Source: a virus
IMG/VR virus record: IMGVR_UViG_3300020171_000065
Coordinates: 1-42,624 of that record
DNA: 42,624 bases
Strand: one strand, 5' to 3'
The translations under genes and the position numbers were made by a program. The notes under the pieces were generated by a model that was not told where the DNA came from, made no database searches, and was given only the letters and a program-made list of their open reading frames with translations. Below, piece by piece: positions 1,056-42,624 of this stretch; within the stretch, counting starts at the first letter, position 1; each line of letters starts with the position of its first letter.

Positions 1056-1092
1056 GAAGCACACTAACAATTAAATAACGGAGGTGAGCACA

Positions 1093-1905
1093 ATGCAAAA
1101 GAACTCACTAGATGGGTTCGTCGGAAAAGACAGACAGGGTGGCAAGGTCATCCGTCTAAACCGCAAGCGACTGAGCTTCAATGGTAAGGGATACGCAGAA
1201 GTCGTATTCCTCGGAGACATCCACTATGGTCATCCAGGGTGCGATGTCGAGAGAGTCCAAAAAATGATTGACTATTGTCTTTCAAAGAACATCTATGTTC
1301 TTGGTATGGGCGACTATATCGAAGCTGGGCTTCGTAATTCAGTCGGGGACTCTGTGTATATGCAGAACCTCAACCCCCAAGAGCAGATGGACTTCGTGCT
1401 TGACGTGTTCAAGCCACTCGCAGACGCAGGTTTGCTGATTGGTCTACATATCGGAAACCACGAGGGTCGTATTCTCAAGGAGACTTCGGTCAATCTTGCG
1501 AGCCTAATTGCTCGCATGTTGGGAGTTCCGTATCTCGGATATGCCTGTTGGAACATTATCTATGTAGGCAATCAGAGCTATACAATATACTCTCTACATG
1601 GGTCATCTGGCTCACGGTATGTCTATACCAAGCTAAAGGCTTTGGTAGACATCTCTCACAACTTTGATGCAGACATCCTTGCAATGGGACATGTTCACGA
1701 ACTAGCCGATGAGGCAATTCTCGTCCAACAGGTGGACAAGCAACGCAAGATGGTTATAGAAAGGAAGAAGTATCTTCTTATTACGGGTTCGTATTTGAAA
1801 TACGATGACAGTTATGCCCAGGAGAAGGGCTACCCAATGGGTAAGCTCGGCTCTCCCAAGGTGAAACTGTTCGCCAATAAATACGACATCCACATCTCAA
1901 CTTGA
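1093..1905 (+). CDS. Calcineurin-like metallophosphoesterase
   Basis: A 270-residue metallophosphoesterase with the family's ordered metal-ligand motifs: GDIHYGH (D-x-H), GMGDYIE (GD), GNHEGR, SLHGSSGS (His) and GHVHE (GHxH). The family hydrolyses phosphomono- or diesters with two metal ions; the substrate here is unknown. The start is ATG 1093 because a GGAGG site at 1080-1084 is 8 nt upstream; a GTG at 1084 would lie inside that site. It opens a GC-richer cassette (1093-2887) whose codon use (CGC/CGT for Arg, AAG for Lys, CTC for Leu) and strong ribosome-binding sites differ from the AT-rich, SD-less genes around it, suggesting recent transfer. Confidence 0.85.
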   Translation: MQKNSLDGFVGKDRQGGKVIRLNRKRLSFNGKGYAEVVFLGDIHYGHPGCDVERVQKMIDYCLSKNIYVLGMGDYIEAGLRNSVGDSVYMQNLNPQEQMDFVLDVFKPLADAGLLIGLHIGNHEGRILKETSVNLASLIARMLGVPYLGYACWNIIYVGNQSYTIYSLHGSSGSRYVYTKLKALVDISHNFDADILAMGHVHELADEAILVQQVDKQRKMVIERKKYLLITGSYLKYDDSYAQEKGYPMGKLGSPKVKLFANKYDIHIST

Positions 1906-1912
1906 GGTTGCC

Positions 1913-1954
1913 ATGGGCAAATCTAAGCGTCGGCTTAAGAAACGAAGGAGGTAA
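1913..1954 (+). CDS. Possible 13-residue basic peptide
   Basis: A mini-ORF encoding MGKSKRRLKKRRR. A GAGG sequence sits 5 nt before its ATG, and its stop overlaps the GGAGG site of the next gene, so translational coupling is possible. It may only be a spacer that presents the ribosome-binding site; the strong base bias (9 Lys/Arg of 13 residues) could simply reflect AAG/AGG-rich sequence. No family is recognisable. Confidence 0.25.
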   Translation: MGKSKRRLKKRRR

Positions 1955-1956
1955 TT

Positions 1957-2355
1957 GTGGGCAAGAAGGCAAGAGTAGAGTCCTTGATTAAGAAATGGAA
2001 GCGTCCTCTTCGCCTTCAGGACTGGTTCGTCTTAGCCAGAATTGTCAAGGAAGAAGACGACCACGAGATTATAGGCAGAGCTGGACAAGTAGATATTCGT
2101 CCATCTGTCTTTGAGGCGATTATTGAAATCAACGCAACCACAGAAGAGAATTACATTGAAGCGACCGTCTATCACGAATTGGCACACATCAAAACCAGAG
2201 AAATCTTTTGGCAATTACGCCAAGTATTTCTTGCAATGGATTGTGGAGAAGCCCTGGTAGAAATTCTCAACGCTTGCGAAGAGTCACAAGTTCGCCATAC
2301 AGAGTTCCTGATTGGCAGGATGCTCTGTGCCCCAAGAATACTGGAGGAGAAATGA
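1957..2355 (+). CDS. HExxH zinc metallopeptidase-like protein
   Basis: A 132-residue protein with HELAH at residues 73-77 within a helix (TVYHELAHIKT), the zinc-binding motif of gluzincin-type peptidases such as SprT/ImmA-like proteins. A later Glu-rich helix (EESQVRHTE) could supply the third ligand; I infer this. It starts at GTG 1957, 6 nt after a perfect GGAGGT. It lies in the SD-bearing cassette between the phosphoesterase and two zinc-ribbon genes, and its end overlaps the next ATG (ATGA). ImmA-like peptidases often cleave repressors, but there is no HTH domain or cognate repressor here, so the target is unknown. Confidence 0.7.
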   Translation: MGKKARVESLIKKWKRPLRLQDWFVLARIVKEEDDHEIIGRAGQVDIRPSVFEAIIEINATTEENYIEATVYHELAHIKTREIFWQLRQVFLAMDCGEALVEILNACEESQVRHTEFLIGRMLCAPRILEEK

Positions 2356-2636
2356 AATGCACATTGTGCGGCGAAGTCCTTGAAAGGATTTACCACAGGT
2401 TTCCAGAGATGAAGGGAAACTACTGCAGAAAATGTTCTGCAATCATCTACGGGATTTGTGGCTTCACTCACTATGCCAACGACCAAGAAGAGGAAATGAA
2501 CTGCATGAAATGTGGTTCATTGATGGCAAAGAAAGACGCAAACACCTTTGACAACATTGTCGGCATATTCTGTAGAGATTGTGCCTCAACTGTCTTCCAA
2601 GCATATTGGAATGAATATTTCAAGGAGGGAAAATGA
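2352..2636 (+). CDS. Double zinc-ribbon protein
   Basis: A 94-residue protein with two four-cysteine units: CTLC...CRKC near the N-terminus and CMKC...CRDC in the second half, each a likely zinc ribbon. The start at ATG 2352 is preceded by GGAGGAGAA and overlaps the stop of the previous gene by four bases. Function is unknown; zinc ribbons commonly bind nucleic acid or proteins. It is part of the SD-bearing, GC-richer cassette. A longer frame from 2208 exists but would overlap the upstream gene deeply and lacks a ribosome-binding site. Confidence 0.7.
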   Translation: MKCTLCGEVLERIYHRFPEMKGNYCRKCSAIIYGICGFTHYANDQEEEMNCMKCGSLMAKKDANTFDNIVGIFCRDCASTVFQAYWNEYFKEGK

Positions 2637-2887
2637 AGCTCTTTAGAAGCACTTGTTGCAAAAGCCCTGTGGCTACTCGCAGAACAGTAGATATGAAGAC
2701 ACTGTATTACATCTGTGTTGAATGCGGAGAGCCCTGCCAGGCGGAATGGATGGAGGCAGAAGTCGGGGAATCCAATGTTGGCTCAAGCACTTGCTGTAAC
2801 GCTGGTGTCCATGTCGTCTACCATAAGTATGGTGGCAAACGATGGCACTGTGATAAGTGCGGTAACCCATGCGAGGTGGTCATCTAA
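2633..2887 (+). CDS. Zinc-ribbon protein
   Basis: An 84-residue protein with paired cysteine clusters: STCCKSP...CVECGEPC and STCCNAG...CDKCGNPC. The two halves are alike, suggesting an internal duplication of a CC-x(n)-CxxC unit. AGGAGGG lies 4 nt before the ATG, and the ATG overlaps the previous stop (ATGA), so it is translationally coupled. It is the last gene of the SD cassette and is followed by the hairpin at 2934-2982. Function unknown. Confidence 0.7.
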   Translation: MKLFRSTCCKSPVATRRTVDMKTLYYICVECGEPCQAEWMEAEVGESNVGSSTCCNAGVHVVYHKYGGKRWHCDKCGNPCEVVI

Positions 2888-2933: not shown

Positions 2934-2982
2934 GGGGGCGCCTGGGATTGCTGTTATCTTCGGATAACACCCTTTCGCCCCC
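2934..2982 (+). terminator. GC-rich three-tier hairpin at the cassette end
   Basis: GGGGGCG (2934-2940) pairs with CGCCCCC (2976-2982); inside, GTTATC pairs with GATAAC around a TTCG tetraloop. There is no T-run after it (CCTACTATTAA), so it is either an imperfect terminator or a boundary or processing hairpin. It separates the SD-bearing cassette from the SD-less genes. Confidence 0.5.
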
Positions 2983-3002: not shown

Positions 3003-3665
3003 ATGGAAGAAATAATAGAAGCGGGTAAAATATTGGCACAGATTATAAGAAGATTAGAAAAGATGGTAAGACCTGGAATTACCACAAAAGAACTGGATAA
3101 ATATGCCAGAGATTTTCTTATTATTAATCAGGTAAAATCAGCATTTTTAGGATACAAGAAGTTCCCTGCCGTGCTTTGCACATCTGTAAACGATAAGGGC
3201 ATTCACGGAGTTCCGTCTAATTATGTTCTTAAAAATGGAGATATTATTGATTTGGATTTGGGCATAAAACACAAAGGGTATTTCGCTGATATGTCAAAGA
3301 CAATTCCTGTTGGGCAAGTTAACCAAAAAGCAAAGCACTTGATCAAGACAACCAAGAATGCCCTGATTGAAGGAATAGCACAGGCCAAGCCAGGCAACGC
3401 AATAGAAGATATAGGAAACGCTATTGAAAACTATGTTCTTAAAAAAGGACTTAAGATTTCAAGAGATTTCTGTGGACACGGCATAGGTAAAAAACTACAT
3501 CAATTACCAAATGTCCGGAACTACGGCACTAAAGGAAAGGGTTTGAAGTTGAAAGAGGGAATGGTAATATGTATAGAGCCACTAGTTATTGGCGATGGAC
3601 TAAAAGCACACTTTGAACACATGGTTCTTATAACAAAAACTGGTAATAAAATACTAACAATATGA
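3003..3665 (+). CDS. map: Methionine aminopeptidase, type I
   Basis: A 220-residue enzyme that removes the N-terminal Met from nascent proteins. Metal ligands are all visible: D85 (in DLDLG), D96 (YFADMS), H159 (CGHGIG), E192 (CIEPL) and E205 (FEHMV); H68 (HGVP) is the conserved substrate-site His. Spacing matches E. coli MetAP up to E192, but the loop to the last Glu is about 18 residues shorter, and there is no N-terminal extension. The start has no Shine-Dalgarno site, only an A-rich leader. The stop overlaps the amidase ATG, so the two are co-translated. A phage-encoded MetAP is uncommon; it fits with the phage-encoded GroEL as a protein-maturation function. Confidence 0.92.
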   Translation: MEEIIEAGKILAQIIRRLEKMVRPGITTKELDKYARDFLIINQVKSAFLGYKKFPAVLCTSVNDKGIHGVPSNYVLKNGDIIDLDLGIKHKGYFADMSKTIPVGQVNQKAKHLIKTTKNALIEGIAQAKPGNAIEDIGNAIENYVLKKGLKISRDFCGHGIGKKLHQLPNVRNYGTKGKGLKLKEGMVICIEPLVIGDGLKAHFEHMVLITKTGNKILTI

Positions 3666-5951: not shown

Positions 5952-6426
5952 CGCCAGCAAGAATGGACAGAAGAAGAGGGCAGAATACCGCAAATCAATG
6001 GCGGGGAAATTGACGCAACAGAAATGGCGACAAAGCGAAAAAGGGAAGGAGTATCTGCGAAAGTATATGGAAAAGTATCGGAAATCGGACAGGCGGAAGA
6101 TAGCAGTGAGCAAGCACACAAAAACATTAAAGTTCAAGGCGACATTAAAAAGATTTCAGAACTCACCGAAGGGCCGAGAATGTTTAGCGAGGGGAGTCCA
6201 CAAAAGACGGGTGAGAATGAAGCTAACTATTTGCGATTTAACGGCCGACCAATGGGCCGAGATACAAAAGAAACAGAACTATCTTTGCAAGATTTGCGGG
6301 GAAAAGAAGCCATTGACGAGAGACCATATAATCCCGCTAACGAAAGGCGGACAACACACGGCAATCAACATTCAAGCAGTTTGTCGGAGTTGCAACGCTC
6401 GGAAAGGAAATCGCACAAGTCAGTAA
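5899..6426 (+). CDS. HNH endonuclease inserted in the methyltransferase gene
   Basis: A 175-residue protein: a basic N-terminal two-thirds rich in Lys/Arg and Tyr (DNA-binding), then an HNH core with CKICGEKK, TRDHIIPLTKGG, the N of INIQAVCRSCN and a terminal CxxC pair. It lies in frame +1 relative to the methyltransferase, overlaps its premature end by 53 nt, and fills nearly the whole insertion, so there is little room for a self-splicing intron. It is most likely a homing-type endonuclease gene. No Shine-Dalgarno site; base composition is GC-richer than the other three HNH genes, suggesting a separate origin. Confidence 0.85.
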   Translation: MDYGKYKESRLRATTKYNASKNGQKKRAEYRKSMAGKLTQQKWRQSEKGKEYLRKYMEKYRKSDRRKIAVSKHTKTLKFKATLKRFQNSPKGRECLARGVHKRRVRMKLTICDLTADQWAEIQKKQNYLCKICGEKKPLTRDHIIPLTKGGQHTAINIQAVCRSCNARKGNRTSQ

Positions 6427-6467
6427 TTACCCCCGGACAAACTCCACACGGGAAAGCACTTAAAAGA

Positions 6468-6758
6468 ATGGCAGGAGAAAAAGACCCAGAGTATCTTACT
6501 CGCAATAAACGCTCCGTCTGGACAATAACCACCAAATCATTTAAGGAAGCTCATTTCGCTACATTCCCAGAAGATTTAATTGTGCCGATGGTAAAAGCAG
6601 GGTGTCCGAAAGATGGCATAGTTTTAGATCCGTTTATGGGAAGTGGGACAACAGCATTAGTCGCCAAGAAATTAGCAAGGAATTATTTGGGCATAGAACT
6701 AAATCCCGAATACATAAAAATAGCAAACGAACGATTGCGACAGGACATATTATTATAA
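6468..6758 (+). CDS. DNA methyltransferase, C-terminal part
   Basis: The frame of the N-terminal part resumes here and carries TRNKRSVWTI, AHFATFPEDLI, the AdoMet-binding motif VLDPFMGSGTT and GIELNPEYI, the canonical C-terminal half of these methyltransferases. The first plausible internal start after the HNH gene is ATG 6468 (MAGEKDPEYL), giving 96 residues. The frame is open back to 5952, through the whole HNH gene. The two parts could reassemble as a two-chain enzyme (motif IV and motif I on different chains), be reunited by readthrough or RNA processing, or be inactive. Confidence 0.7.
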   Translation: MAGEKDPEYLTRNKRSVWTITTKSFKEAHFATFPEDLIVPMVKAGCPKDGIVLDPFMGSGTTALVAKKLARNYLGIELNPEYIKIANERLRQDILL

Positions 6759-6791
6759 AAACCACCCTGTTAATAACTATTGGTAAGTCCC

Positions 6792-6820
6792 TTGACAAAT
6801 AAATAAATAGGGTATATCAT
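6792..6820 (+). promoter_or_regulatory. Sigma70-type promoter of the HNH gene
   Basis: TTGACA at 6792-6797, 17-nt spacer, TATCAT at 6815-6820. The ATG of the HNH gene at 6827 is 7 nt after the -10, so the mRNA should be leaderless. Confidence 0.7.
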
Positions 6821-6826
6821 TAAAGA

Positions 6827-7270
6827 ATGGAAAATGAATTAGAAAAAAAAGAGAATATTGAAGGATACGGAAATACTTTAGGAGAACTTGGAAGTTATTA
6901 TAATCTTAGAAAATGTGTTGATTGCGGCGTTAAATATTACGGTGGGACAAACTCTAAAAGATGTAAAGATTGTGGGATTAAAAATAATGAAAGGCGCATA
7001 ATGAGTCGTAAGTATTATAAGAAGATAGAATATCTTAAAAAATTACCTGATAACTGTATTTTTTGTGGAAGTAAAAAGAGTTTGGAAATTCATCACATAG
7101 ATGCTAATCCGAAGAATAATGATATAAAGAATTTATTAAGAATATGTTGTAAGTGTCATAGAGTTCTTCACAGTAAAATTTATAATAAGATTTTTAGTCC
7201 AGAAATAAGAAAGGCAATAAAATTATGGCAAAAGGAACCAAAACAAAAGAAACGAGAAATCAAAATTTAA
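6827..7270 (+). CDS. HNH endonuclease
   Basis: A 147-residue protein with a first zinc unit (CVDCGVKYYG...CKDCG) and an HNH core: NCIFCGSKK, LEIHHIDANPKNND, and NLLRICCKCHRVLH. Likely a free-standing homing endonuclease. It has its own promoter (6792) and probably starts at its ATG without a leader. Its last 46 nt overlap the HTH ORF at 7225 in another frame. It is AT-rich like the phage backbone, unlike the HNH gene inside the methyltransferase. Confidence 0.85.
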   Translation: MENELEKKENIEGYGNTLGELGSYYNLRKCVDCGVKYYGGTNSKRCKDCGIKNNERRIMSRKYYKKIEYLKKLPDNCIFCGSKKSLEIHHIDANPKNNDIKNLLRICCKCHRVLHSKIYNKIFSPEIRKAIKLWQKEPKQKKREIKI

Positions 7271-7374
7271 CTGAATTGAAATCAAAAATGACTTTCAAGA
7301 ATTTGGCTAAGATGTTTAACATATCTGAAACAAGAGCCAAACAGATTTATTATAGGCAAATCAAAAAGGGATAA
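7225..7374 (+). CDS. Small helix-turn-helix protein
   Basis: A 49-residue ORF below the usual length cut-off. The C-terminal half MTFKNLAKMFNISETRAKQIYYR has the pattern of an HTH as in sigma70 region 4 (x-F-x-x-L-A-x-x-F-N-I-S-x-x-R-A-x-Q-I). It begins inside the 3' end of the HNH gene and ends at the terminator at 7364. It could be a small transcription factor acting on the promoters here. It has no Shine-Dalgarno site. Confidence 0.6.
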   Translation: MAKGTKTKETRNQNLTELKSKMTFKNLAKMFNISETRAKQIYYRQIKKG

Positions 7375-9349: not shown

Positions 9350-9623
9350 ACCAGTATTTCAGTGGATGGTTAAAAGTAAAACCCGGCCCAAGAAGTTTCA
9401 TATCATATCTTATTATGAGAATGACATCAAGGGCCGGACTTTTGACCATTGGCATTGTTCGTGTGAGGGGTTTTTCACGGCAAGGAAGCACAATCACTTT
9501 TGTAGCCACATTAGGCGTGCTACTCACAAATTTAACGGATTAACTTATGAACGAGAAAACTATCAACTTAAATCAAATAAAGCTGGACAAGAACCACAGG
9601 TTTCCAATAGAAAAGAAGATTGA
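9333..9623 (+). CDS. SWIM zinc-finger protein
   Basis: A 96-residue protein containing WHCSCEGFFTARKHNHFCSH, which matches the SWIM pattern CxCx(n)CxH. SWIM fingers bind DNA or proteins. The start ATG 9333 overlaps the end of the previous gene by 17 nt; an upstream GTG at 9306 is possible. The C-terminal 25 residues overlap the next gene in another frame by 77 nt, so the true end of the functional domain is before that overlap. Confidence 0.65.
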   Translation: MIFRNRPVFQWMVKSKTRPKKFHIISYYENDIKGRTFDHWHCSCEGFFTARKHNHFCSHIRRATHKFNGLTYERENYQLKSNKAGQEPQVSNRKED

Positions 9624-9771
9624 AATTGGAGAGGATGTTCTTATTACAATGAAAGCGTGTTGTTTCGGAGAAGATGTCCGAGACAATCAGGACGGGACTG
9701 TGAATGTCACTTATGTCTTGAAGCCCATTGAGGTTATCATAGACAAGAAAGTCATTCATCTAAAGTCCTAA
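9547..9771 (+). CDS. Hypothetical small protein
   Basis: A 74-residue protein with an IEIGEDVLITMKACCFGED...DNQDGTVNVTYVLKPIEV pattern, mostly beta strands, seen in small phage proteins of unknown role. It overlaps the SWIM-finger gene by 77 nt in another frame; both frames have good protein-like composition. It is the last gene before the structured tRNA region. Confidence 0.6.
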   Translation: MNEKTINLNQIKLDKNHRFPIEKKIEIGEDVLITMKACCFGEDVRDNQDGTVNVTYVLKPIEVIIDKKVIHLKS

Positions 9772-12735: not shown

Positions 12736-12878
12736 AGGAAGATAAATTAGTATTGAAATTAGTTTTAGGTAACATAATTTTTTGGACTAAGAGAAAATGG
12801 AATAAAATAACTACTCGCAGAGGAGAAAGAAGTTTAGATGATTTTTATAATTTTGCAAGGAGAAGTAAAAACCTATGA
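12732..12878 (+). CDS. Small basic hypothetical protein
   Basis: A 48-residue ORF with ATGA overlaps at both ends. It begins MKEDKLVLKL, has a hydrophobic stretch (LVLGNIIFW) and a basic Arg/Lys-rich second half ending RSKNL. Its four-base overlaps with both neighbours support it as a real gene. Function unknown. Confidence 0.5.
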   Translation: MKEDKLVLKLVLGNIIFWTKRKWNKITTRRGERSLDDFYNFARRSKNL

Positions 12879-14143: not shown

Positions 14144-15691
14144 ATGAACGAACATCGCTTGATCAAAACAGATAAAGAGTGTCGCATGGCACTCAAAAGA
14201 GGAGTAGACGCAGTCGCAGATGTAGTTAAGAAGACGCTTGGGCCTTACGGAAGAAATGTAATAATAGAACGCAAAAAGAAAGTCCCACGCATAACAAATG
14301 ACGGAGTATCAGTGGCCAGTGAAATAGTATTAAAAGACGAAACCGAAGATGTAGGAGCTCAGGCAGTAATAGACGCTGCCATAAAAACAAACGAACAGGT
14401 AGGAGATGGCACAACAACATCAATAGTTTTAGCACAAGCTGTGTTTGAAGAAGTAATAAACCGCCTGGACGAAAAGAATTCTATATTAAGTTCATCTTGT
14501 AATTTACTGGACTTAAAAAGAAAGATAGATAAGTCCTGCAAGGAAGTAGTAAAGAAGTTAATAAAATCCAGCAAACAAATAAAGACCAAAGAGGACCTAG
14601 ATAATGTAGCTATAACTTCTATTGAAGACGAAGAAATGGGCAAGATAGTATCTAATATGGTATGGACAATCGGCAAGGACGGGTTCGTAAATGTAGAAGA
14701 TAGCTTTTTACAAGAAACTGAAACAGATATAATCAAAGGAATGAAGTTCTTTGGAAAATACGCCGCTCCGTTTATGATTACTAATAGCAAGAAACAGGCA
14801 GTATTCAGGGCAGTTTCTGTATTAGTAACCAACGAGCCGTTAGAAGATCCAAACAATCTTAAAGGCATAGCAGAACAGGTGGCCCAAAGAGGTAGGCCAG
14901 AGTTAGTTGTTTTCGCCCCACTGTTCAGTGTTGAAACATTGAGTTCAATATTCAACACACACAAACAGGCAAACTTTAGGATACTGGCGATTAAGGTAGC
15001 TTCTGCAACCCCGGAACAGCTAGAAGACCTTGCTTGTTATGTCGGCGCTAACTTTATAGACAAGGACAAAGAGATGTCAGTAGAGTCAGCATCATTTAAT
15101 GACTTGGGATATGCCCAAAGAATAATAGCAACAGATGACGAAACAATAGTAATAGGTGGCAAGGGTGAACAAAAAGACATCAATGCTAGAATTAAAGAAA
15201 TAAAATCACACCTTGTGCTTGAAACACTCCCAGAGTTCAAGAAAAACATTGAAAGGAGAATAGCTTCTTTGTCCGGAGGAGTAGGAGTAATCAAGGTTGG
15301 TGCTAAAAGCGAAGTAGAACGAGGTTATATCCGCCTAAAGGTTGAAGATGGGGTATGTGCTACTAAAGCCGCTTTACAAGAAGGCGTAGTAAAAGGAGGC
15401 GGATTAGCACTTAAGGAAATAGCAGACAAACTTCCGAAGGGTGATATTCTAAAGAACGCCTTATCTAAACCTTATGAGCAAATACAAGAAAACGCAGGTG
15501 GAAAGTTAGAGATAGGAAATGTATTAGACCCTGTAAAGGTCGTGAGAATAGCTTTAGAGAATGCTTGTTCTCTGGCATCTACATTAGCGACAACGGAGTC
15601 AAGTATAGTTTGGAAACGCCCAGAGTTAGCAGAAGATGTTCACGAAGCAGTAAAGCGTTGGAAGGCCTTAGGCCCCGATGAAATGAGATGA
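14144..15691 (+). CDS. groEL: Group I chaperonin (GroEL/Cpn60), phage-encoded
   Basis: A 515-residue Cpn60 with the equatorial signatures LGPYGRNV, VGDGTTTSIVLA (ATP-site Asp at residue 88) and VEDGVCATKAALQEGVVKGGG, which holds the Asp needed for ATP hydrolysis. The apical domain is present but divergent. The C-terminal Gly-Gly-Met tail of host GroEL is absent; it ends KALGPDEMR. It forms folding chambers for nascent proteins. No GroES is found in the window, so it must use the host co-chaperonin or work alone, as proposed for some large-phage chaperonins. Expression is downstream of promoter 13798 and its attenuator. Substrates may include the major capsid protein or the 2,219-residue protein. 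Confidence 0.93.
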   Translation: MNEHRLIKTDKECRMALKRGVDAVADVVKKTLGPYGRNVIIERKKKVPRITNDGVSVASEIVLKDETEDVGAQAVIDAAIKTNEQVGDGTTTSIVLAQAVFEEVINRLDEKNSILSSSCNLLDLKRKIDKSCKEVVKKLIKSSKQIKTKEDLDNVAITSIEDEEMGKIVSNMVWTIGKDGFVNVEDSFLQETETDIIKGMKFFGKYAAPFMITNSKKQAVFRAVSVLVTNEPLEDPNNLKGIAEQVAQRGRPELVVFAPLFSVETLSSIFNTHKQANFRILAIKVASATPEQLEDLACYVGANFIDKDKEMSVESASFNDLGYAQRIIATDDETIVIGGKGEQKDINARIKEIKSHLVLETLPEFKKNIERRIASLSGGVGVIKVGAKSEVERGYIRLKVEDGVCATKAALQEGVVKGGGLALKEIADKLPKGDILKNALSKPYEQIQENAGGKLEIGNVLDPVKVVRIALENACSLASTLATTESSIVWKRPELAEDVHEAVKRWKALGPDEMR

Positions 15692-40228: not shown

Positions 40229-40241
40229 TTAATACCATAAT

Positions 40242-42624
40242 ATGAAAAAACTTATTTTAATAGCTACACTACTTTTAATACCTCTAATAGCATCTGCTGT
40301 TTTACCAGCTTGGTTTGATGATTCAAAAATAGAACTTGGAGGATCAGTTTGTTACCCGTATATGGGTTGCACGGGTGCTGACACCTCCGCCTGGACTGGT
40401 GTAGTCAGGGTAGATAGTGGTGTATGGGCGACTACTACGGCTGGGGTATTTACCGCCTCTGGAACACTATTAGATTTAACAGGAACTGTTTTCAGTGTAA
40501 ATGAAGGAACTTTAACTACTGGAAAGTTCTGCCTTTTTGATGGCACGAATATAGTTTGTAACTCAGATGCAGGGGCCACCCTAACTCAAGAACAAGTAGA
40601 GGATTTTGCTGGCAACCTAATAGCCACTTCTACTGGGACACATACTTTAATCACAATTACCTATCAAGACGCAACTGGCGACATGGATTTTGTGGTAGAT
40701 AATGATTTGGCAAATTATAGCAATGCGACTTCTTCATTTTTAACATCAGACATTTATTGGACAGGAACTTCTACTAACTTAGTAGCCGCTACTGGTAGGA
40801 CTTCGTTAGGGCTTGGGACTATGGCACTTTTACCAAACACTGGTTCAACAACAATAACAACTTTGGGAACTATTGCTAATGGTATTTGGCAAGGGACTGC
40901 GATAGGAAGCACATATATTGCTTCCTCCACTCAATGGGACACAGCATATACAGACCGACTTAAATGGGATGGTGGTTCTGCGGGATTGGTAGCGGCAACA
41001 GGCAGGACTTCTTTGGAACTTGGTTCTATGTCTTTATTGGCTAATACTGGCTCAACAACAATAACCACTTTGGGAACAATAGCAACTGGAGTGTGGGAGG
41101 GAACGGCAATTACAGATGCTAATGTGTCAGACACTCTCACTTGTTCTGTGGTATCAGACGCAGATAAAGGTGATATTACTATTTCATCAGGAGTATGGGG
41201 ATTAGATGATAATCTTAACTTAACTTTTGGAAATACCACTACAACTAATTTGGTGATTACTACTGCTTTAACCTTACCTACTGCTTGGACAGGCGTATTG
41301 AGGACTGATAGCGGGGTAGTTTCTACTACAACTGTAGGGGCAGGAACGGTTACGAGTGTAGATTTTAGTGTGCCAACAGGATTAACAATCGCCAATAATC
41401 CGATTACTACCTCAGGGACTTTGGCTTTAGGTTGGGATACTGGATATGCTGGAGTTTTAACCGCCTCTACCACTAATTGGCAATCCTTTTATACTACTCC
41501 TTCAGGGAGAATAACAGCAGGAACGGGGCTGGGTTGGTCAACTAATACTCTTAACTGGTCTTCTACTGGACTGACTTGGGCGGGGAACGCTATTGGAAAT
41601 ACGGTTGGTGGCACAGGACTGGATACTTCAGCTTGGACTGGAATTGTTAGGGTGGACTCGGGAACATTTTCTACTACCACTGCGGGAGAGTCGTTATTTA
41701 CCGACGCAGGAACATTTACCTATCTTACATCTACTACTGACGGATTTGCGATTGGTGGAACAACCACCGCTAAAGCTAATTTTTATGTTTATCCTGCTAC
41801 GGGAGAAGCGACTATTAGATTAGATGAAGCAACTGGTGATGGTGGATTAACGATTAAAAACACAATTGCTGCTGCCGCAAATCGTATATCAATGATTCAT
41901 TTTAAGGGAGACACTGATGGATTATTAACAATGGCAATGATTAAGGCAAATTGGATGGATTCTTCTACATCAACTGCTGCCTTGACTTTTGAAACAAGAA
42001 AAGACGGAGCCAGTAATACAAGAATGGTTATAAGTGTAGATGGGTATATAGGCATAGGAGATGAAAGTCCTGCTTCTTTATTCACAGTTGGGGCAAGTGA
42101 TGCCTTTCAGGTAAATGCTACTGGGAACATAACTTCTGGTATTTGGAATGGCACACCCGTTGGCACTCAATGGGGAGGGACTGGACAAAATTGGTCAGCA
42201 GTGGCAACGGGTTCAATCGCTTACTTTAGTGATACGGGGGCGATGAATACATTAGCTAAAGGAAGCGATACTCAAGTTCTTACATTAGCAAGTGGTATTC
42301 CTTCTTGGGCGGCAGCAGCAGGCGGAGGCGAATGGACAGACGGGGGAACCGTTCTTTATCCAAATGAGATAGGATTAGATAATGTTAGTATAGGAACAAC
42401 CACAGAACACGCAAAACTAACGGTTCAATCTACATCAACTACAGATATCCTCAATCTTTTTGAAACAAGTGGGACAGAGGTGTTTACTGTGTTGGAGAGC
42501 GGCAACGTCGGCATCGGGACGACGACGCCTGCATATAAATTACACGTCATGGGAGACATGAATCTTTCTGCAGGAAGTGTTTATAGGATAGACGGAGTTG
42601 AGCAATCAGGTTCAAGCAAATGGA
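40242..42624 (+). CDS. Tail fibre, N-terminal part (runs off the window; continues at 1-761)
   Basis: The frame is open from ATG 40242 to the end of the window (794 codons plus one base) and continues in frame at base 1, giving 1,047 residues in total. It starts with a signal peptide (MKKLILIATLLLIPLIASA). The body has beta repeats: AWTGVVRVDSG, AWTGVLRTDSG and AWTGIVRVDSG; two copies of a LVAATGRTSL...TITTLGTIA unit (about 40784-40910 and 40988-41105); and GIGTT motifs near the end. These match fibre-type proteins of Patescibacteria and their phages. It is predicted to be exported, and its C-terminal S74 domain (at 237) would self-cleave after trimer formation. Confidence 0.85.
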   Translation, partial: MKKLILIATLLLIPLIASAVLPAWFDDSKIELGGSVCYPYMGCTGADTSAWTGVVRVDSGVWATTTAGVFTASGTLLDLTGTVFSVNEGTLTTGKFCLFDGTNIVCNSDAGATLTQEQVEDFAGNLIATSTGTHTLITITYQDATGDMDFVVDNDLANYSNATSSFLTSDIYWTGTSTNLVAATGRTSLGLGTMALLPNTGSTTITTLGTIANGIWQGTAIGSTYIASSTQWDTAYTDRLKWDGGSAGLVAATGRTSLELGSMSLLANTGSTTITTLGTIATGVWEGTAITDANVSDTLTCSVVSDADKGDITISSGVWGLDDNLNLTFGNTTTTNLVITTALTLPTAWTGVLRTDSGVVSTTTVGAGTVTSVDFSVPTGLTIANNPITTSGTLALGWDTGYAGVLTASTTNWQSFYTTPSGRITAGTGLGWSTNTLNWSSTGLTWAGNAIGNTVGGTGLDTSAWTGIVRVDSGTFSTTTAGESLFTDAGTFTYLTSTTDGFAIGGTTTAKANFYVYPATGEATIRLDEATGDGGLTIKNTIAAAANRISMIHFKGDTDGLLTMAMIKANWMDSSTSTAALTFETRKDGASNTRMVISVDGYIGIGDESPASLFTVGASDAFQVNATGNITSGIWNGTPVGTQWGGTGQNWSAVATGSIAYFSDTGAMNTLAKGSDTQVLTLASGIPSWAAAAGGGEWTDGGTVLYPNEIGLDNVSIGTTTEHAKLTVQSTSTTDILNLFETSGTEVFTVLESGNVGIGTTTPAYKLHVMGDMNLSAGSVYRIDGVEQSGSSKW

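Follow-up and report, generated by a model that had tools for sequence, protein, structure and literature searches.

The question raised by this locus is why four consecutive virus genes should each carry a strong Shine-Dalgarno (SD) sequence when almost none of their neighbours do. The window analysed here is the whole 42,624-base virus record IMGVR_UViG_3300020171_000065. A tail-fibre ORF (from 40233) is still open where the contig stops on the right and resumes in frame on the left, as far as 761. The contig is therefore probably a near-complete, circularly permuted genome; the joined ORF (40233-42624 with 1-761) has an S74 chaperone end. Genes throughout are ORF calls, the contigs are metagenomic and the hosts were deduced. 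The cassette at 1093-2887 and its signals comprise the following parts.

1080-1084, plus strand: GGAGG, SD of the phosphoesterase gene, before ATG 1093; -15.4 kcal/mol
1093-1905, plus strand: calcineurin-like metallophosphoesterase, 270 aa, from its motifs and PHROG 7339 'DNA repair exonuclease' (E 2e-46)
1913-1954, plus strand: possible 13-aa basic ORF (MGKSKRRLKKRRR), predicted from sequence only; weak GAGG upstream, -6.8 kcal/mol
1947-1951, plus strand: GGAGG, SD of the HELAH gene; -13.9 kcal/mol
1957-2355, plus strand: 132-aa protein with a HELAH (HExxH) motif, GTG start
2343-2347, plus strand: GGAGG, SD of the first zinc-ribbon gene; -9.3 kcal/mol
2352-2636, plus strand: 94-aa zinc-ribbon protein, ATG start in an ATGA overlap with the preceding stop
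2624-2628, plus strand: GGAGG, SD of the second zinc-ribbon gene; -11.8 kcal/mol
2633-2887, plus strand: 84-aa cysteine-rich, second zinc-ribbon-like protein, ATG start in an ATGA overlap; no family match
2934-2982, plus strand: GC-rich, terminator-like hairpin at the module end, from sequence and folding; no clear U-tract

The initial annotation had described four genes with GGAGG 4-8 nt before each start in a genome otherwise nearly free of SDs, with higher GC, different codon use and a GC-rich hairpin at the end, and all of these observations were borne out. GGAGG at 1080, 1947, 2343 and 2624 lies 8, 5, 4 and 4 nt upstream of the respective starts. Within the -18 to -3 stretch it precedes 4/4 cassette genes versus 0/52 other genes of the window, a split that represents one arrangement in C(56,4), or ~2.7e-6. 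The gene at 789-1055 is preceded by a weak GGAG (aataggagaataaatATG), and that at 12875 has AAGGAG, but well upstream. The pairing energies listed above were calculated with RNAduplex against a patescibacterial 16S tail, which is an assumption; with the same tail the 52 other genes reach -8.3 kcal/mol at best, with a median of -2.3 kcal/mol. Of the SD islands in the window, the cassette likewise ranked first in a gene-order test (4/4 versus 3/61 outside, permutation p 0.0085).

ATGA stop/start overlaps couple the cassette genes at 2352-2355 and at 2633-2636, and the first gene shares part of its stop codon with a GAGG, so that the SDs lie partly inside the preceding reading frames. The candidate 13-aa ORF ends in AGG AGG TAA, which is the SD of the next gene. 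Comparable gene overlaps elsewhere in the window occur without an SD. In composition, GC3 of the cassette genes is 0.47-0.54 compared with mostly 0.20-0.46 in the rest of the window, they are four of the five poorest fits to its codon use, and the GC content of the 1.8-kb cassette is about the highest among stretches of equal size. The gene at 9547-9771 is also an outlier in codon use, and has no SD.

The hairpin has outer arms GGGGGCG...CGCCCCC and an inner TGTTATC-TTCG-GATAACA stem-loop. It lies in the contig's most stable 60-nt fold (-26.8 kcal/mol, rank 1 of 4257), with modest significance against shuffles (z -1.8). Transcription may terminate here, ahead of the downstream methionine aminopeptidase (MetAP) and lysis genes; the type I MetAP, at 3003-3665, is closest to those of Patescibacteria. 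In a promoter search, the stretch around 1056-1092 showed no sigma-70-like site, and hits did not exceed those in shuffles, although the host promoter type may differ. Direct or inverted repeats that might mark an insertion around the window cassette were confined to short ones at chance level.

The phosphoesterase retains the motifs GDIH, GD..E, GNHE, H and GHVH, so that all five metal-binding blocks (D-x-H / GD / GNH / H / GHxH) are present, and residues D42, H44, D74, N122, H123, H169, H200 and H202 are invariant in ten proteins. The window protein falls just under the cut-off of the Pfam calcineurin-like family, whereas relatives exceed it, and the nearest solved structures by profile are the DNA polymerase II small subunit and SbcD. 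The enzyme may be a nuclease or phosphodiesterase that serves nucleic-acid metabolism or the takeover of the host. AlphaFold models of the phosphoesterase (pLDDT 50) and the HELAH protein (pLDDT 46) were too poor for use. The HELAH protein matched no family but has a relative 3' of the phosphoesterase gene in L309/G464 (30% identity, E 4e-7; HECIH). Pfam gave no SprT-like or HExxH protease family match for the 1957-2355 protein, and its L309 relative matched SprT-like at E 0.016 only, under the cut-off. Relatives of the 94-aa zinc-ribbon protein adjoin the phosphoesterase in G454 (50%) and L309 (38%). Neither the HELAH nor the zinc-ribbon genes had homologues in named phages at E 0.1, and no cassette gene matched PADLOC defence families or NCBIfam.

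Pattern searches recovered phosphoesterase relatives in many viral contigs, and in roughly a dozen further phage contigs the same SD oddity surrounds the gene. Given this recurrence around one enzyme gene, the cassette looks more like a self-contained gene module that travels than a one-off accident. Close relatives (47-83% identity) occur in largely SD-less phages and are usually SD-led, often with adjoining SD-led zinc-ribbon and HExxH genes and a GC-rich hairpin after them. In the phosphoesterase phylogeny, the window protein belongs to a supported clade of seven (99/98) together with L214/G454 (83% identity to the window protein), L001/G008 (63%), L216/G455 (61%), L217/G456 (60%), L287/G457 (53%) and L218/G459 (47%). 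All seven members lie in SD-poor contigs and 6/7 have strong SDs. The phosphoesterase gene of G456 has only AAGGAAG (-6.4 kcal/mol), yet its operon mates are SD-led (a zinc-ribbon gene and an HNH gene).

The make-up of the module varies among carriers. G455 has five consecutive SD-led genes (zinc ribbon, DUF4406, phosphoesterase and two small genes), while in G454 the SD-led phosphoesterase and two zinc ribbons are followed by one further gene and then the amidase gene, which adjoins the module in the window also. L309/G464 repeats the order of the window, with a phosphoesterase fused to a C2H2 finger, an HExxH gene and a zinc ribbon, all SD-led, and G466 has an SD-led run with an HExxH gene and zinc ribbons. 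In the 46.9-kb G467, the phosphoesterase is the sole strong-SD gene (1/66). Some other relatives in SD-poor contigs likewise have weak SDs (L321, -4.2; L324, -7.4; L334, -6.8 kcal/mol). More distant relatives in SD-poor contigs frequently have no SD, as in L336, L261 and L331, and for this reason the strong SD is a property of this clade and not of such phosphoesterases generally.

Across 13 contigs, the SD of the phosphoesterase ranks first in strength in six (window 1/65, G454 1/47, G455 1/70, G459 1/22, G467 1/66 and G469 1/55) and among the top three in 10/13, giving a combined p of 1e-6 that ignores relatedness and the slightly wider choice of starts allowed for the phosphoesterase. The top SD island contains or touches the phosphoesterase gene in 8/13 contigs; in G008 and G467 this island is a single gene, and several islands do not reach significance on their own p value. 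G465 (which has introns and is SD-richer), G468 and G469 showed no SD island, and G465 was rejected as a clean SD-less contig, with 19/74 genes over the SD threshold. GC3 of the phosphoesterase gene exceeds that of its context in 12/13 contigs (Wilcoxon p 0.0005), and tracks it with a steady positive offset (r 0.77, p 0.002).

Module-end hairpins are the most stable fold in the window, G008 and G456 and rank fourth in G455, but are less striking in G454 (rank 21) and G457 (rank 42); most have no clear U-tract. G008, G457 and L313 have in common a leader with the SD and a GTCC arm, and a trailer with a GGAC arm and a hairpin in which both arms vary together, while the genes flanking this conserved leader and trailer differ between G008 and G457. 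In L001, the phosphoesterase gene lies between the 11-bp arms of a perfect inverted repeat (TAGAAGTCCAA / TTGGACTTCTA, ~634-645 and 1461-1471), one immediately before the SD and one immediately after the stop, and the repeat is partly retained in G457 and L313.

The initial annotation further took the cassette for an import of recent date, from a phage or host that relies on SD-led translation, with genes that may act in another context or at another time. Here a foreign or mobile origin is supported by the sequence comparisons. The nearest sequenced relative phage, G015 (major capsid protein, MCP, 76%), lacks the cassette at the matching place, where a coiled-coil/TM gene is directly followed by lysis-type genes, although these genes are too divergent to provide a clean empty site. 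The phosphoesterases of the window and G454 are 83% identical, against 31-50% for their other matching proteins. Conversely, those of G008 and G457 share 53%, against 65-94% for proteins elsewhere, indicating that the gene moves or is replaced. The window TerL profile had no match in G454, G455, G456, G457 or G459, and other terminase-like genes are present in G008/G457 and G455. A recent import from an SD-using donor was not supported in that form, as the whole seven-member clade and most close relatives reside in SD-poor phages and are mostly SD-led.

The host is probably a member of the Patescibacteria. SD-poor genomes occur in both Bacteroidota and Patescibacteria. Among named phages, the nearest TerL proteins are those of Bacteroidota phages. 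Bacteroidota are nevertheless the less likely host, because the phage MetAP matches Patescibacteria at 54% (E 2e-67) and Bacteroidota at only 47% (E 1e-54), and because a phage contig syntenic with the window (GroEL, TerL, portal, MCP) was binned with a Microgenomatus MAG (L079, DYGI01000003.1). L079 and L037, an IMG/VR record from another sample, represent the same or nearly the same phage. The window also encodes a GroEL-like chaperonin (14144-15691), which was uninformative as a host marker, being ~34% identical to every phage group. G081, the genome that matched the phage MetAP best, has no more strong SDs than the internal control (2/40). The patescibacterial 16S genes examined end in GGATCACCTCCTT and keep CACCTCC, so an SD is readable in principle, and the cassette SDs may be used in the true host. 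A first scan of species genomes with the phosphoesterase patterns found no relatives, and 287 Patescibacteria genomes gave only four weak matches (24-34%), one of them within a pair of ~400-aa ORFs that is apparently chromosomal.

We consider it reasonably likely that the cassette is a moron-like mobile accessory operon that is translated via the host anti-SD and whose SDs are probably kept by selection. An operon of a metallophosphoesterase, a small HExxH protein and zinc-ribbon proteins would move among SD-less phages and bring its own expression signals, namely a strong SD for each gene, stop/start overlaps and a stable GC-rich 3' hairpin. Host ribosomes would retain the CCUCC anti-SD even though the host rarely uses SDs, and because they would start on module genes by SD:anti-SD pairing, translation of the module would not depend on the A/T-rich leaders of the resident phage. 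The hairpin would insulate the module from the downstream MetAP and lysis genes.

The competing view that the module has been imported repeatedly or recently from SD-using phages, so that its SDs and high GC3 are inert relics of the donor, seems to us unlikely, though it accounts for some of the data. It fits the excess of phosphoesterase GC3 over context in 12/13 contigs, the more distant homologues in SD-using Bacillus, Geobacillus and Moorella phages, and the 45-49% relatives in SD-richer contigs (L316-L319, L325 and L328), which show that SD-using carriers exist. Against it, all seven clade members inhabit SD-poor phages, G008, G457 and L313 have a conserved leader and trailer, and the tracking of context GC3 with a steady offset is a pattern that a single fresh import would not produce. 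In G008 the composition has adapted, making it the kind of relative, uniform in composition (gene GC3 0.27, context 0.28), that the initial annotation had named as refuting its import, and AGGAGG is nevertheless retained. That these SDs persist in SD-less phages among proteins 50-80% identical suggests selection, and the signals are thus probably not relics. An artefact of start choice, chance or chimeric assembly at the contig start we regard as very improbable. The cassette does lie 1 kb from the contig end, and small ORFs and their starts are uncertain, but the 4/4 versus 0/52 split, the tail-fibre frame across both contig ends, the amidase neighbour shared with G454 and the independent contigs from other metagenomes all contradict it.

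A further reading is that the SD-led island forms a translational regulon for those ribosomes whose anti-SD is exposed, either bS21-free or belonging to a second, SD-using cell, so that two modes of initiation would separate the module from the SD-less genes in time or place. In Flavobacterium, occlusion of the anti-SD is lifted in ribosomes that lack bS21; in F. johnsoniae these ribosomes prefer exceptionally strong SDs and translate rpsU (PMC9976891). Several module SDs are below -13 kcal/mol, the threshold of that study, where it was computed with another program; this similar strength, albeit by a different calculation, makes a regulon possible, as does the anti-SD kept in patescibacterial relatives. 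However, no bS21 match was found in G081 (a genome that may be incomplete), and none of the module phages examined encodes bS21. We hold this reading to be improbable; if it were true, the second cell could be a bacterium carrying a patescibacterial epibiont. The cassette resembles Bacteroidota rpsU, with its extended SD and bS21 autoregulation (PMC9976891), in having a very strong SD alone in an SD-less genome, but rpsU is a host housekeeping gene with known autoregulation, whereas the cassette is a phage operon with none known.

Returning to the favoured accessory operon, phage morons are accessory genes with their own expression signals inserted between phage genes (PMC2920897). Similarly, the cassette is accessory, absent from the nearest relative, deviant in GC from the rest of the phage, equipped with a 3' hairpin, found in several phage types and situated near the lysis region. 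It differs in that its conspicuous autonomous signal is translational, consisting of strong SDs in an SD-less genome; because the promoter search was weakly negative, we call it moron-like only. The PHROG 7339 proteins of Moorella MTATph1, Bacillus Stahl and Geobacillus phages share fold motifs, length and 25-30% identity over most of the protein. The clade of the window is separate and supported, and its members include finger fusions (L309, L312) and genes split by group I introns; the gene lies near lysis genes here, compared with near terminase or portal genes in the Moorella, Stahl and KLEB27-3 phages.

SD-less bacteria retain a ribosomal anti-SD, and the module bears on its use: strong SDs across divergent SD-less phages provide a natural set of test genes, for which either the anti-SD of such hosts is fully usable or a special state of the ribosome is exploited. 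The mode of initiation can also mark a mobile module within a phage genome, so that SD islands could be used for finding accessory genes.

Some relatives have further features of their own. Group I introns (Rfam RF00028) split the phosphoesterase gene in L347 (5781-5965) and L343 (4973-5335); in L347 an HNH-like ORF (~6396-7337) lies in an apparent second insert, and the gene in L334 looks interrupted too. N-terminal zinc fingers are fused to the phosphoesterase in L309 (5896-6810; C2H2, Pfam) and L312 (5917-6810; Cys-rich), matching the free zinc-ribbon genes that adjoin it elsewhere. Finally, L210/L211 (G009) has a relative of the window TerL, widespread, perhaps archaeal-like, GAGGT-type SDs and long direct repeats near its right end; its phosphoesterase (34%) is not SD-led, and small genes, a zinc ribbon among them, come after it.
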